DNA of 64,000 nucleotides, taken from Lacinutrix neustonica. GTDB taxonomy: Bacteria; Bacteroidota; Bacteroidia; Flavobacteriales; Flavobacteriaceae. The stretch spans positions 2,025,501 through 2,089,500 of the forward strand of contig NZ_CP113088.1 of NCBI RefSeq assembly GCF_026625145.1. The letters are read 5' to 3'. The notes under the pieces are model-generated. The model did no database searches and was not told where the DNA came from. It was given only the letters and a program-made list of their open reading frames with translations. Positions 4,141-26,425 of this stretch are shown here, piece by piece; the stretch's first letter is position 1; each line of letters begins with the position of its first letter. The position numbers were made by a program, and so were the translations under genes.

Positions 4141-6260
4141 ATGCTTTTAAAATACATACAGTCCCATACCAATTTATCTGATGCCTCGATTAAAAACACC
4201 GTGGCTTTATTAAATGAAGAGTGTACTATCCCCTTTATTTCTAGATATAGAAAAGAAGCTACAGGCAATTTAGACGAAGTTCAAATTGGAGATATCGTAA
4301 AGTACAAAGAACAGTTTGAAGCGCTAGAAAAACGAAAAACAACTATTTTAAAGGCTCTAGAAGACCAAGGCGATATAACAGAAACTCTAAAAAGTAAAAT
4401 ACAGGCTGCAACAGATTTAACAACGCTTGAAGATCTGTATCTCCCATTTAAAAAGAAACGAAAAACCAAAGCCGAAACAGCGCGTAAAAATGGCTTAGAG
4501 CCCTTGGCTAAAATCATTATGTCACAGAACGCCAATGATCTCGAATCTATTGCCTTAAAATATGTAAAAGGAGAACTCACAACTATTGATGCCGCCTTAG
4601 AGGGTGCAAGACATATTATTTCTGAATGGATTAACGAACGTACAGATATCAGAAATAATCTAAGAAACCAATTAGACCGTCATGCCCAAATAACAACCAA
4701 GGTCGTTAAAACAAAAGCGGAAGATGAAAAAGCTCAGAAATTTAGAGGTTATTTTGATTGGACCGAAAGTCTAAGTCGAATACCCTCTCATAGATTACTT
4801 GCTATTTTAAGGGCTGAAAACGAAGGGTTTATTCGCGTGAAAATTGAAGTGGATGCTATTAAAGCGTTAGAAAATATAGATCGGAAAATTATAAATTCTA
4901 ATACCGCTTGTGCCGATCAATTAGAACTTGCAATTAGTGATGCTTACAAACGTTTATTACTTCCTTCCTTAAGTAACGAAGCACTTCAAAAGGCAAAAGA
5001 AAAAGCCGATACTGATGCAATAAACGTATTTTCAAATAATTTAAAACAACTTCTTTTAGGCTCACCCTTGGGTGAAAAACGCATATTAGCCATCGACCCT
5101 GGGTTTAGAACGGGATGTAAACTCGTATGTTTAGATGCACAAGGTGCCTTATTACATAACGAAACCATCTATCCGCATCCGCCTAAAAGTGATAGTATTG
5201 GTGCTATTAAAAAATTAGCCTCGTTAACTGAGGCATATAAAATAGAAGCGATTGCTATAGGAAACGGAACCGCATCCCGTGAAACCGAAGCGCTCGTTAA
5301 AAAAGTGTCTTTCAAAAACGAGATTCAGGTATTTGTAGTCAGTGAAGCGGGAGCCAGTATTTATTCGGCATCAAAAATAGCACGGGATGAGTTTCCAGAT
5401 TACGATGTGACCGTCCGCGGCTCGGTATCTATTGGTCGCCGTTTACAAGACCCCTTAGCAGAGTTGGTGAAAATTGATGCTAAATCTATTGGTGTGGGAC
5501 AATACCAACATGACGTAGACCAAACTAAACTCCAAAAGTCATTAGATGTTGTGGTGGAAAATTGTGTGAATGCTGTAGGTGTAAATATTAATACAGCCAG
5601 TACCTCTCTTTTAAGTTATGTTTCGGCATAGGACCTAAATTGGCTGAAAATATTTTCAAGTATAGAAACGAACACGGTAGTTTCAAATCTCGAAACGACA
5701 TTAAAAAAGTGTCGCGATTAGGAGGAAAGGCCTTTGAGCAAGGCGCGGCGTTTTTAAGAATTAAACAGCCAAAAAATCCTCCGGATGATTCTGCAGTGCA
5801 TCCTGAAAGTTATAAGATTGTTGAGAAAATGGCGAAAGACAAAAGTGTTTCCGTTTCTGAATTGATTGGAAATAAAGACCTTCTTCAAAACATTGATTTG
5901 AAAGCTTACTGTACAGAGACGGTTGGGTTATTAACCTTAGAAGATATCGTCAAGGAACTGGAAAAGCCGGGTCTAGATATTCGTGAAGCAGCGAAAATGT
6001 TTGCCTTTGATGAAAACATCAAGACCATTACCGATTTGCATACTGGTCAATTACTTCCAGGCATCGTAAACAACATCACAAACTTTGGGTGTTTTGTTGA
6101 TATTGGTATCAAAGAAAGTGGCTTAATCCATGTCTCGAATTTAAGTGATCGTTTTGTTAAAGATGTTAATGAACATGTACACTTAAATGAACAAATACTG
6201 GTGAAAGTTTTGGAAGTAGATGTCCCTAGAAAACGCATCCAGTTAAAGTTAGAAAACTAA
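4141..6260 (+). CDS. tex: Tex-family RNA-binding transcriptional accessory protein
   Basis: Cytoplasmic nucleic-acid-binding protein of the Tex/Spt6 family, about 706 residues. Visible parts are the N-terminal helical region with FISRYRKEATGNLDEVQ, a YqgF/RNase H-like domain from ILAIDPGFRTGCKLVC near residue 318, helix-hairpin-helix segments (YVSGIGPKLAENIFKYR; SRLGGKAFEQ), and a C-terminal S1 domain (LPGIVNNITNFGCFVDIGI). The frame breaks inside the first HhH motif, where TCGG at 5623-5626 stands for TCTGG; restoring the T gives the family sequence. The ATG at 4141 matches the family start but lies directly after the T-tract of the preceding terminator, with no leader for a ribosome site. 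Confidence 0.95.
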
Positions 6261-6323: not shown

Positions 6324-7228
6324 ATGCTAAAAATCGCTTATCATCCAATTTACTGTCATCCGTTGCCGGAAGGGCATCGCTTTCCCATGTTAAAATACGA
6401 CTTACTACCGCAGCAGCTCATTCATGAAGGCACTTGTACAAACGAAAATTTTTTTGAGCCTTTACGAATGCTGAATGAGGCACCTATTTTAGCGGTTCAT
6501 ACCCCTGACTATTTTTACGATTTACTCAACATCACCTTAAAGACTAAAGCCGCTAGAAAAATAGGGTTCCCCCTGTGTGAAGTTTTGGTCGAACGTGAAA
6601 TCACCATTGTCGATGGTACGATTAAAGCCAGTGAATTTGCTTTAGAATATGGTATCTCCATGAATATAGCAGGAGGCACACACCACGCTTACACCAATAA
6701 AGGGGAGGCCTTTTGCATGCTCAATGACCAGGCGATTGGCGCTAGATACCTTCAAAAAAAGGGTTCGCAAAGCAAATTTTAATTGTTGATTTAGACGTAC
6801 ATCAAGGCAATGGGACGGCAGAGATTTTTGCCAATGATCCCTCTGTATTTACATTTTCAATGCATGGCAAACACAATTATCCGTTTAAAAAGGAGCAGAG
6901 TGATTTAGATATTGCTTTGGATAACAATATAAGCGATGCAGCATACCTCGCTATTTTACAAGACACACTTCCAAAACTAATCCAGGAGGTAAACCCGGAT
7001 TTTATCTACTACTTATGTGGTGTGGACGTAATTAGCACCGACAAATTAGGCAAATTAGCCTTAACGGTTGCTGGATGTAAAGCCGGAGATCAATTGGTGC
7101 TACAACTTTGTAAGACCAATCATATTCCTGTCATGTGTAGTATGGGAGGCGGCTATTCTCCGGAAATTAAAACCATAATTGAAGCGCACGCCAATACCTT
7201 TCGTTTAGCCCAAGAGCTCTTTTTTTAA
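6324..7228 (+). CDS. Histone-deacetylase-fold hydrolase (AcuC/HDAC family)
   Basis: A zinc-dependent deacetylase-fold enzyme of about 300 residues, probably acting on acetylated lysines, polyamines or similar amides. Motifs in order: GGTHHAY (paired histidines), DLDVHQGNGT (zinc Asp and His), a GVD segment, and a late GGGYS. This is the short bacterial form found in many Bacteroidota. The frame slips near 6754-6765, in or beside a run of seven A, which looks like a homopolymer error rather than the CCAGA-type lesion seen elsewhere. The last 45 or so codons and the downstream sequence recur in decayed form near 8952-9090. The substrate cannot be told from sequence. Confidence 0.88.
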
Positions 7229-7303
7229 TTCCCAGTAGTGACCCACATATACGCTATTTCGCCCGATTGTTACATTTCATCTTATAAACCGTACACTTCG
7301 TCG

Positions 7304-7311
7304 TATATTTG
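7304..7311 (+). promoter_or_regulatory. Minus-7 box of small RNA copy A
   Basis: TATATTTG matches the Bacteroidota consensus TAnnTTTG. The same box at the same relative position is present in copy B at 9167-9174. I see no clear TTG minus-33 element at the usual spacing in either copy. Confidence 0.55.
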
Positions 7312-7316
7312 TGTAA

Positions 7317-7466
7317 GCAAAACGATAATACGTTAGCCTTTAAAAAAGACATTTCAGTATACTACTACTTATGGTATAATAAATAATTAGTGAATCCCTA
7401 AAACTAATTATATGTTGGTTGATTAATAGCGAGAAAAACCACTTGACACCCCTCAAGTGGTTTTTT
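7317..7466 (+). ncRNA. Putative small RNA, copy A
   Basis: A stretch of about 150 nt with a TAnnTTTG box upstream and an intrinsic terminator at its end. It has no credible coding content. It can form at least one internal hairpin (TATAC...GTATA near 7358-7378) besides the terminator. A second copy at 9180-9330 matches with a single internal difference (A7325 against G) until the terminator loop, while the flanking sequence has diverged clearly. I infer a conserved non-coding RNA. I cannot name its family; the flavobacterial Flavo-1 motif and 6S RNA are candidates to test, not claims. Confidence 0.55.
7434..7466 (+). terminator. Intrinsic terminator of small RNA copy A
   Basis: The stem ACCACTTGA pairs with TCAAGTGGT, preceded by A and followed by six T. 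The stem is conserved in copy B while the loop differs (CACCCC against TCCTT), which is what selection on a terminator stem would leave. Confidence 0.85.
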
Positions 7467-7790
7467 AGTTTTGTTCATTTTTTTTAAAGCTTGTATTAAA
7501 ACAGATCACTCCTAAAAGATGCGGTAATCCAAAATTGTAGTTAATCTATGAGGGGGAAATTCAATATTATTAATCGAACGCTTCGATGGTTGTGCATTAA
7601 ACAGATACTTACTAAAGCGCGAGTTACAAGTTTCACATAAGGAAATCAACCAATAGGTTTCAAGGGAAGCTCACACGTAAAGCTCTAGAACTTGAATCAA
7701 TAAGGAATACCTAAAAATAATAAACCCACAAGAAAAAAATCTTGTGGGTTTTTAATAAAGTGTTAGTTGGTTTGCCAACAACCTATTAGT
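7467..7790. other. Gene-free stretch with a leftward terminator at its right end
   Basis: About 320 bp with no reading frame I can support. Around 7575-7660 there is faint coding-like texture, possibly a decayed gene, but I could not match it to a family. The only clear structure is the terminator at 7722-7752. Confidence 0.4.
7722..7752 (-). terminator. Terminator of the 7791-8351 lipoprotein gene
   Basis: The stem AAACCCACAAGA pairs with TCTTGTGGGTTT around a short A-rich loop, 39 bp beyond the stop of the leftward lipoprotein gene. U-rich tails exist in both directions. Confidence 0.8.
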
Positions 7791-8351
7791 TTATAGGGCT
7801 ATTATCTGCATTTCAACTGCGTAATCAGATTCTAATGTAGGAAAACCAGCCATTAGATCAGGAGTAACGTCTTTTAACACTAATGCAAAATAGGCGTTAT
7901 TAAGCTCAAATACTAGTTCATCTTCCAATCTAAGCTTGGCTTCGTTATCAAATGGGCGATCTAATTCATAACAATCACCAATACACATTGGAACTGTTTC
8001 TGAGGCCCCACTCTCTTCTGTAAAAGAAAGCTGTACTTTAGCAGCCCCCTGGGTAATACACTTAGCATTCACTGGACAACGACTATCGTCAATCCCGGTA
8101 AAAGCAATTCTTATGCTCTCTGTATTGTAACCTCTGCGGCTAATAATTAAAACTTGCTTGTTATACCCCATGGTAAAGTAAATGCCTGTCTCTGAATTAC
8201 TACTCTTGGCTTGTTCCTGTGAAGCGTCAATAAGTATTTCTTGGACTTGTTCTTGTGAAACTTCAGCTGGTGTTTCAATAGTAATATCGGACTGTTCACA
8301 AGCGGTTAAAAAGAGGGTTAAGCCTATGATTAATAATATACGATTTTTCAT
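7791..8351 (-). CDS. Lipoprotein of unknown function
   Basis: A 186-residue protein with a lipoprotein signal peptide (FLTACEQ, Cys near residue 18). A glutamine/glutamate-rich linker (about 30-50) precedes a beta-rich domain that contains DDSRCPVNAKC followed by QGAAKVQLSF. That short cysteine motif is common in small Bacteroidota lipoproteins of unknown role. A further pair of cysteines (MCIGDCYEL) could make a second disulfide. The gene stands alone with its own terminator. I do not assign a function. Confidence 0.8.
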   Translation of the reverse strand: MKNRILLIIGLTLFLTACEQSDITIETPAEVSQEQVQEILIDASQEQAKSSNSETGIYFTMGYNKQVLIISRRGYNTESIRIAFTGIDDSRCPVNAKCITQGAAKVQLSFTEESGASETVPMCIGDCYELDRPFDNEAKLRLEDELVFELNNAYFALVLKDVTPDLMAGFPTLESDYAVEMQIIAL

Positions 8352-8874
8352 GATAATTTTAAATGGTTTGTTTTTTTTAAAGGTTTACTTTTTTAATAGG
8401 TCTCGAAATTCATAATATACTAATATCGCGCGCTACTAGTCATAAATTTCGGGGCAAAACTAGAAAAAAAATATAAGGTATCCCTAGTCGTTCAACAAAG
8501 TTAATGACAGTTTAACCCAAAAATAATCTTATAATAATCTGCTCTTGTTTTAGAGGCGATAGAAGAGATAAAATGGGCCCTACAGATGACCCAAATAGTG
8601 TATGCCTAAAATTTAAAAAACACTTATTTTGTATAGTAAACTATAATCTGACGATAAGGCCGATTTTAGGGCTGTAAATAATATAATGCTCTTTATAAGT
8701 AATGAATGGGGTAAAAATGAAAAGAAGTCTATTTGTTTTTTACCTTAGCACTTGTTAACTGTCGTTTTTGTTTTTTCCGAATGAAAATATTAAGACGGCT
8801 ATTGGATAAGATAAAGTGATAACTATTCAAAATATTCCGTATAGTGTCTTTCCTTCAGGCTAAAATCCTCTGCT
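8352..8874. other. Gene-free region, nothing recognised
   Basis: About 520 bp upstream of the leftward lipoprotein gene with stop codons in all frames and no RNA structure I could support. It should carry that gene's promoter. Confidence 0.5.
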
Positions 8875-8947
8875 CTTCGAAGTTTGCAATTTCGAAGTTA
8901 TTAAAATAAATACTTACTGTAAACGTTACGAAGTTGCAAACTTCGTA
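8875..8947. repeat. REPIN-like pair of hairpins
   Basis: There are two short palindromes 30 bp apart. The left (8875-8897) has arms CTTCGAA and TTCGAAG around a GTTTGCAA-type core. The right (8927-8947) is a 9-bp stem TACGAAGTT/AACTTCGTA with a GCA loop, followed by GGGG. The cores are inverted relative to each other (CGAAGTTTGCAA against TTGCAAACTTCG, 12 bp perfect). Two inverted REP-type hairpins form the classical REPIN arrangement. It sits at the left edge of the duplicated segment described next. Confidence 0.5.
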
Positions 8948-8951
8948 GGGG

Positions 8952-9090
8952 GGATCAATTTGTGCTAGCACGTTGTAAGACTAATAACAACCCTGTCATG
9001 CGCAGTATGGGTGGTGTTATTCTCCGGAAATAAGATCCATTATTAATGCGTACGCCAATACTTTTCGCTAGACCCAAAAGCTCTTTTGAA
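8952..9090 (+). pseudogene. Decayed duplicate of the deacetylase 3' end
   Basis: This stretch aligns with 7087-7228, the last 45 or so codons of the HDAC-family gene. Shared blocks include the CCTGTCATG...AGTATGGG region and ATTCTCCGGAAAT...ACGCCAATAC. By eye the identity is about three quarters, with frameshifts and stops, so it cannot be translated. There is no 5' part of the gene here. It shows that a segment holding the gene tail plus the downstream small RNA was duplicated. The alternative, that an entire second deacetylase gene was lost from its 5' end, is also possible. Confidence 0.75.
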
Positions 9091-9166
9091 AAATCGCATA
9101 AATATCCAACTATACGCTATTTTGCCCGATTATTACATTTCGTCCTACAAAACACACACTTCGTCG

Positions 9167-9174
9167 TATATTTG
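9167..9174 (+). promoter_or_regulatory. Minus-7 box of small RNA copy B
   Basis: TATATTTG, the counterpart of 7304-7311, embedded in a block that is identical between the two copies from the ACACTTCG just upstream. Confidence 0.55.
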
Positions 9175-9179
9175 TGTAA

Positions 9180-9330
9180 GCAAAACGGTAATACGTTAGC
9201 CTTTAAAAAAGACATTTCAGTATACTACTACTTATGGTATAATAAATAATTAGTGAATCCCTAAAACTAATTATATGTTGGTTGATTAATAGCGAGAAAA
9301 ACCACTTGATCCTTTCAAGTGGTTTTTTGA
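9180..9330 (+). ncRNA. Putative small RNA, copy B
   Basis: Second copy of the element at 7317-7466, starting 1,863 bp later, with one internal difference before the terminator loop. The surrounding sequence is much less conserved, so the RNA part appears constrained or recently homogenised. Its 3' end overlaps the 3' end of the leftward membrane-protein gene (9286-9723), so the two transcripts would be antisense to each other over roughly 45 nt. Confidence 0.55.
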
Positions 9331-9723
9331 TTTCATCCCTTTCGTTATAAGGCCTGTATAAACACCGAGACCCATACCAATAGCTATAAATGGCAGTGTG
9401 AAAAGCAAAGTTATGTTGTATTGCGGCGTTTTAATTTTGTTAAACTTCGCATTTAATATCTTTCTGGTTTGCCCACTGTATCCCATCCAGTTTTTATAAT
9501 AAATCCCGATAGACAGTATAACAAACAGAAACCATGATTTCTCACTAGACAAACTATCCACATGTAACTGACTGGCAAATGCCGCAAAAAAACAACCTAA
9601 TAGGAACACTAAACTCATTTGGAGCACAGAGGTATACACTAAGGCTATAGTGTTAGCTTTTTGTTTGTAACGTACCTTATAATACGTGAAAATAAAGAGG
9701 TATATTTTATCGAATACTGTCAT
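9286..9723 (-). CDS. Small membrane protein of unknown function
   Basis: A 145-residue protein with three likely membrane segments, about residues 32-50 (LVFLLGCFFAAFA), 62-77 (WFLFVILSIGIYY) and 102-125 (NITLLFTLPFIAIGMGLGVY). The N-terminus is short and basic-aromatic, with no cleavable signal. The last 15 or so codons (KSKNHLKGSSGFSRY) are read from the antisense of the small RNA copy B terminator, so this tail was probably acquired when the duplicated segment arrived. An intact TCTGG is present near 9463. No family is recognised. Confidence 0.7.
   Translation of the reverse strand: MTVFDKIYLFIFTYYKVRYKQKANTIALVYTSVLQMSLVFLLGCFFAAFASQLHVDSLSSEKSWFLFVILSIGIYYKNWMGYSGQTRKILNAKFNKIKTPQYNITLLFTLPFIAIGMGLGVYTGLITKGMKSKNHLKGSSGFSRY
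9297..9328. terminator. Terminator of small RNA copy B, inside the end of a membrane-protein gene
   Basis: ACCACTTGA pairs with TCAAGTGGT, with A before and T after. It ends the rightward RNA. Because A and T tails flank both sides it may also act on the leftward transcript, whose stop codon at 9286-9288 lies just beyond it. Confidence 0.75.
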
Positions 9724-26298: not shown

Positions 26299-26425
26299 TT
26301 ATTTTAGCCCTGATTGTAGCGACATCCTTTTTTGTTTTTCCCAAAAGATATAGCCAAAAGCAGGAAATAGCTTTTAATTTATTTAAGTGGGCTCCTGAAT
26401 TTCACAGGAATAAAAATGCATCCAA

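Follow-up and report, generated by a model that had tools for sequence, protein, structure and literature searches.

Twin small RNA genes in Lacinutrix neustonica, probably controlled by a LytTR two-component system

The subject of this analysis is a pair of near-identical blocks in a 64,000-nucleotide stretch of the Lacinutrix neustonica genome (NCBI RefSeq assembly GCF_026625145.1, contig NZ_CP113088.1, positions 2,025,501 to 2,089,500; the whole stretch is hereafter called the window). We propose that the blocks are tandem small RNA (sRNA) genes of about 150 nt that are activated by a LytTR two-component system, a reading to which we assign a probability of about 0.7. That the blocks are non-coding RNA genes is nearly certain, and each looks complete; control of the twin RNA by LytTR is probable, judging from the sequence. 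Below, G000 denotes the window's own genome, and G002, G005, G008 and G010 are other genomes among the 13 of the genus that were compared.

The blocks had been noticed in a preliminary description of this DNA, and the near-identical pair of about 150 bp reported there was recovered. More specifically, the first block (7293-7445) and its copy 1863 bp downstream differ at one base in 153 (A at 7325, G at 9188). They lie within a longer direct repeat found by a repeat search of the window (7243-7446 and 9106-9309, 95% identity, spacing 1863), and full-length matches to the block occur in the own genome at these two places only. The promoter box TAnnTTTG is common to both copies (7304-7311 and 9167-9174), and both end in terminator hairpins with identical stems and unlike loops, as had been described. 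The RNA likewise holds only short reading frames; a frame of 67 codons (9046-9249) runs across copy 2, yet it starts inside a broken copy of a deacetylase gene. Because the box is placed at −12 to −5 in Flavobacterium psychrophilum, according to the available part of the source (PMC9723704), the RNAs would start near 7316 and 9179. The resulting features are as follows.

7243..7254, + strand: degenerate distal half-site CCACATATACGC of copy 1, 20 bp upstream of the proximal half-site; a weak match to CCNNYTATTACA by our own reading
7263..7274, + strand: proximal LytTR-type half-site CCGATTGTTACA of copy 1, one mismatch, 29 bp before the box
7304..7311, + strand: promoter box TATATTTG (TAnnTTTG) of copy 1
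7316..7467, + strand: non-coding RNA, copy 1, start deduced from the box at −12 to −5
7383..7411, + strand: hairpin with loop GAAUCCCUAAA of copy 1, a predicted fold in which three pairs are changed on both sides, from one sequence
7419..7431, + strand: 13-nt 3' element TTGATTAATAGCG of copy 1
7432..7465, + strand: intrinsic terminator of copy 1
9106..9117, + strand: degenerate distal half-site CCAACTATACGC of copy 2, placed and matched as in copy 1
9126..9137, + strand: proximal LytTR-type half-site CCGATTATTACA of copy 2, no mismatch, 29 bp before the box
9167..9174, + strand: promoter box TATATTTG of copy 2
9179..9330, + strand: non-coding RNA, copy 2
9282..9294, + strand: 13-nt 3' element of copy 2
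9295..9327, + strand: intrinsic terminator of copy 2, with the same stem and another loop

From 5' to 3', the predicted fold comprises a weak 5' structure, a hairpin with an exposed, C-rich UCCCU loop, UUGAUUAAUAGCG and a strong terminator. This fold beats 200 of 200 shuffles (z −4.35), largely because of the terminator; the body of the RNA without its terminator has a predicted fold of −16 to −17 kcal/mol. The RNA had been called unnamed, and it keeps that status after a covariance scan in which the blocks matched neither Flavo-1, 6S nor any other of the Rfam 15 families. A length of about 150 nt would fit some known families (6S, Flavo-1, tmRNA and others in Rfam), but it is extremely improbable that the scan missed one of them: no match reached the gathering score, and the best unthresholded match was the trpB motif at 27.7 of 59 bits. 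The 6S-Flavo model (RF01685) does not match the blocks, the genome's own 6S-Flavo lying at 828419-828547 (97.7 bits). Nor does the Flavo-1 model (RF01705) match them, and the only Rfam match of the window is Flavo-1 at 26302-26371 (61.3 bits).

The case for LytTR control starts from the site upstream of the box. The half-site CCNNYTATTACA stands exactly 29 bp ahead of it in each of the four G000 and G005 copies, with one mismatch in copy 1 of the window only, and the G010 homologue carries the full 21-bp direct repeat, without mismatch, 30 bp before its box. In genes of a second sRNA class, too, the half-site precedes the box by 29 bp. The full repeat, with one mismatch tolerated, occurs at five places in the 13 genus genomes (G000 2532181; G005 2443000 and 2443504; G010 C1 508235; G010 C2 204133), all of them upstream of sRNA genes: the repeat at G010 C2 204133 precedes the twin-type RNA, and all five precede either that RNA or the second class. 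A composite of half-site, 28-30 bp and TAnnTTTG is found in the window at the two blocks only, compared with 1 match in 60 simulated windows. Elsewhere, 8 other distinct matches were obtained from 1.52 Mb of loci, a redundant set partly selected for the 3' element, and all precede RNAs with that element.

The regulator is suggested by the second sRNA class: in G000, G005 and G010 it is encoded directly downstream of genes for a response regulator of the LytTR type (PF04397, PF00072) and for a histidine kinase. The kinase combines propeller-type (Reg_prop) and Y_Y_Y domains (scanned in G005 and G010); its frame is broken in G000 (C1:2533300-2536450). An orthologue of the regulator, 83-100% identical and located in G000 at C1:2532493-2533251, is present in exactly the three RNA-bearing genomes of the 13 searched, and the next-best LytTR regulators reach 49% identity in G002 and at most 37% thereafter. 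Beside the G010 second-class gene, the Rfam scan placed a DUF805b RNA (L163:539-571, − strand, 39.4 bits), the only Rfam match at the other loci with the 3' element. STnc40 was considered for the second-class RNA of L163 and set aside, since its score in a scan without threshold (30.8 of 45 bits, E 0.001) is sub-threshold.

Homology searches place the RNA in two other species of the genus. By DNA and covariance searches, full-length homologues are present in 3 of the 13 genus genomes (two in G000, two in G005, one in G010) and absent from the other 10, so conservation is limited; the five copies have E values of at most 1.5e-18, and the next best match has 2.5e-4. All five sit behind one deacetylase gene, which is represented in the window by two features.

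6324..7228, + strand: histone-deacetylase-like gene (PF00850, open reading frames, synteny), adjoined by the RNA in G000, G005 and G010; split here by a frameshift
8950..9098, + strand: 3'-terminal remnant of the deacetylase gene, part of the older duplication (78-80% repeats D2 and D3)

G002 has the same gene order around the deacetylase with the RNA missing, and in G008 a LytTR-type response-regulator gene takes its place (L091, G008 C109:12072-12800), with about 35% identity to the sRNA-linked regulator. In the alignment of the five copies, 4 of 23 predicted pairs, of which three belong to the hairpin and one to the terminator, have changes in both partners.

Across the family, BLAST against 299 genomes returned short matches in 6 genomes besides the own and no full homologue. 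One match consists of the 13-nt element and terminator (L013), one aligns mainly at the terminator (L016, the same as L122), and one looks coding-like by eye (L017). A covariance model (R1), run with stricter filters at the cost of weak matches, matched 36 of 397 family genomes at E ≤ 0.01, own included. Outside the own genome the top score was 46.2 bits in this sample, of which G005 and G010 are not part. Inspection of 29 loci by eye indicates that the family matches rest on the terminator and partly on the 3' element. The RNA has no match in the plasmid collection.

Several observations weigh against the proposed reading. Of the two half-sites, only the proximal one is good in the window copies; the distal one is degenerate there and in the G005 copies as well. 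When up to three mismatches are allowed, the repeat gives 117 matches compared with 29 for the reversed pattern, a control not split by mismatch level, and a minority of the 117 was inspected. The co-occurrence of RNA and regulator is weak evidence alone, because the three genomes may form a single clade and the co-occurrence may then be one event: a single-gene tree makes G000 and G005 sisters and leaves G010 unsettled, with 46% of bootstraps uniting all three. Predicted pairing of the RNA with the leaders of kinase and regulator, the G005 regulator leader being included in part only, is no better than chance (49-186 of 200 shuffles as low). Finally, the compensatory changes all derive from one sequence, that of G010, so that the fold is supported but unproven.

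Some of these points would suit another explanation, in which the sRNA pair is real, with an upstream element that is vestigial or serves a different regulator and that resembles the second class through a shared ancestral promoter. In its favour are the degenerate distal half-sites in the window and in G005 and the existence of other LytTR regulators of about 35-37% identity in the genus. We nevertheless judge this explanation unlikely, since all four copies preserve the proximal half-site at its 29-bp spacing, G010 retains the full repeat without mismatch, and RNA and regulator orthologue are found in the same three genomes.

The history of the two copies bears on what their likeness can tell. 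When the four copies of G000 and G005 are aligned, the informative sites that span promoter region and terminator all group by species (15 of 15, with 0 by position); past the terminator, where the alignment is looser, 13 of 16 group by position and 3 by species. One informative site upstream of the block groups in a third way. This partition is our own reading of the alignment's site string, and it indicates that the duplication is older than the split of G000 and G005 and that the RNA and its promoter were homogenised later in each. Concerted evolution therefore accounts for blocks that stay nearly identical while their neighbours have diverged. The stronger divergence of the flanks, already pointed out in the preliminary description, is seen in 10 differences within the 50 bp just upstream of the 153-bp blocks and in the deacetylase 3' ends (7085-7234 and 8950-9098), which are 78-80% identical by the repeat search.

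The earlier argument from this contrast to selection stands in part. Its conclusion, a functional small RNA, is upheld by homologues that occupy the corresponding locus in two other species, by compensatory changes in the hairpin (from one sequence) and by a promoter of fixed geometry common to other sRNA genes. Its route, from the near-identity of the two copies, does not hold: this near-identity is mainly due to concerted evolution, and a comparison of two copies alone consequently says little on selection. Recombination alone would suffice for the likeness, and only 3 of 13 genus genomes carry the RNA, as would be expected of a non-coding cassette, mobile or repeated, that has no role in regulation. 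Such a cassette is, however, very unlikely to explain an RNA that occupies the same locus in all three genomes and keeps its promoter geometry, 3' element and hairpin pairing between species.

Under LytTR control of the twin RNA, the regulator and the Reg_prop/Y_Y_Y kinase, encoded just upstream of the second sRNA class, would activate both RNAs. With less certainty, the RNA may act in trans by base pairing through its UCCCUWAA loop, the invariant stretch ACUACUUAUG or both; the 13-nt element and terminator could form a module at the 3' end that stabilises the RNA or recruits an RNA-binding protein; and two gene copies might raise the RNA dose. A 17-nt match to the complement of the loop lies in the own genome inside a gene, presumably purD, and we take it to be chance; neither this search nor the pairing with the leaders yielded a target.

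The 13-nt element reaches well beyond the twin RNA. Allowing one mismatch, TTGATTAATAGCGRNAAA has 46 matches spread over 13 of 13 genus genomes, compared with 2 for the reversed pattern; its exact form has 34 matches spread over 27 of 299 family genomes, compared with 0. The element abuts a terminator, by a rule of our own, at 57 of 62 distinct places, compared with 83 of 4000 random positions. Among the matches listed on named contigs, 38 of 46 from Flavobacteriaceae are followed by a terminator, compared with 1 of 63 from others; families were assigned from record titles, with 2 ambiguous matches (both with terminator) set aside and 3 at stretch ends dropped. The contrast with other taxa is the better control, as the genus, family and named-contig patterns required A's behind the element and thus slightly favour terminators. 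Among the same listed matches, three Flavobacterium-named contigs with the 13-nt string have no terminator behind it.

In the own genome the element occurs at several other loci, including a tandem pair (1517865/1518071) and the second sRNA class, and in other genomes it is often found a short distance after a stop codon. Nine of ten host genes scanned, a selection from 35 loci that are themselves a selection, have a Pfam match: pirin, AcrB-type efflux, ferritin-like (which we take to be Dps-like), isochorismatase, short-chain dehydrogenase, universal stress protein, thioredoxin, peroxidase and cupredoxin. Stress-type genes at L053, L062, L063, L066, L074, L076, L084, L086 and L112 are followed by the element, or a variant close to it, and a terminator. 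There the element could mark 3'-untranslated-region-derived sRNAs or a common mRNA 3' end. RNAs at L156, L160, L163, L079-L081, L101 and L110 have the element or a variant together with a small hairpin-like stretch around TGGTTAC (for example GAGCTGGTTACTC), which suggests a wider sRNA superfamily. A further RNA class with the same element has three copies within about 2 kb of G005 (L161) and one in the own genome (L157).

By analogy with sRNA 3' ends elsewhere, the element may have a protein-binding or stabilising role. Bacteroides is said to be without classical sRNA chaperones in the available part of one report (PMC11697453), and a literature search for the 13-nt string found no paper. More broadly, and only tentatively, part of the Flavobacteriaceae may share a common 3'-end RNA module, UUGAUUAAUAGCG immediately before a terminator, carried by sRNAs (some LytTR-controlled, several multicopy) and by stress-type mRNA 3' ends. 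Such a module might be the site of a chaperone in a post-transcriptional network, with the twin RNA as one sensor-controlled output.

Two further observations concern the surroundings of the blocks. Upstream of copy 2, the deacetylase is present as a 3' remnant only, and the palindromic pieces CGAAGTTTGCAA and TTGCAAACTTCG at 8876-8949, immediately before the remnant, are perhaps a small mobile or repeat element. Frameshifts split the genes at 4141-6260 (presumably Tex-like) and 6324-7228, the deacetylase being intact in G005; together with the split kinase and a completeness of 84%, they point to indel errors in the assembly.

Two-component control of regulatory RNAs of the LytTR type has been described in Firmicutes; the literature searched on LytTR and small RNA contained no report of a LytTR-controlled small RNA in Bacteroidota, and that on Lacinutrix and small RNA yielded none. 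The twin genes, their upstream site and the regulator operon permit a direct genetic test, and the 13-nt 3' element provides a concrete sequence for seeking an sRNA-binding protein of this lineage.

Among known RNAs, 6S-Flavo and Flavo-1 resemble the twin RNA as structured flavobacterial RNAs. Rfp18 of Flavobacterium psychrophilum, whose deletion lowers two metalloprotease mRNAs according to the available part of the source (PMC9723704), is a conserved structured sRNA of the same bacterial family, the likeness being one of description. Closer in organisation are FopS/GibS of Bacteroides thetaiotaomicron, linked to RbpB: like the twin RNA, these are multicopy Bacteroidota sRNAs in which a conserved unpaired stretch precedes a Rho-independent terminator, found also at an mRNA 3' end (PMC11697453, as far as its available text goes). 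Compared by description, FopS is about 65-70 nt long and deposited in Rfam, by the same partial text, whereas the twin RNA, at about 150 nt, with an internal hairpin and no Rfam match, does not fit the plan of a short RNA in which a conserved 5' seed is followed by the terminator.

The closest systems are those in which VirR/AgrA-type regulators are coupled to sRNAs, namely RgaS-RgaR/SpoZ of Clostridioides difficile, VirS-VirR/VR-RNA of Clostridium perfringens and AgrC-AgrA/RNAIII of Staphylococcus aureus. VirR-type regulators have VirR boxes (PMC2838878, available part), and for RgaR the critical bases of spoZ lie at −51 and −72, 21 bp apart (PMC10602386, available part); the geometry here resembles that of RgaR at spoZ in that the good proximal half-site of the window copies is placed at about −53 to −42, although their distal half-site is degenerate and the full repeat, with its 21-bp period, is that of the G010 homologue. 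Homology of the RNA to SpoZ, VR-RNA and RNAIII was gauged through Rfam as a whole only, and binding of the regulator is here presumed from the site. Unlike these systems, the proposed one belongs to another phylum, uses a TAnnTTTG promoter and a kinase with propeller and Y_Y_Y domains, and has its tandem RNA pair at a locus apart from the regulator.
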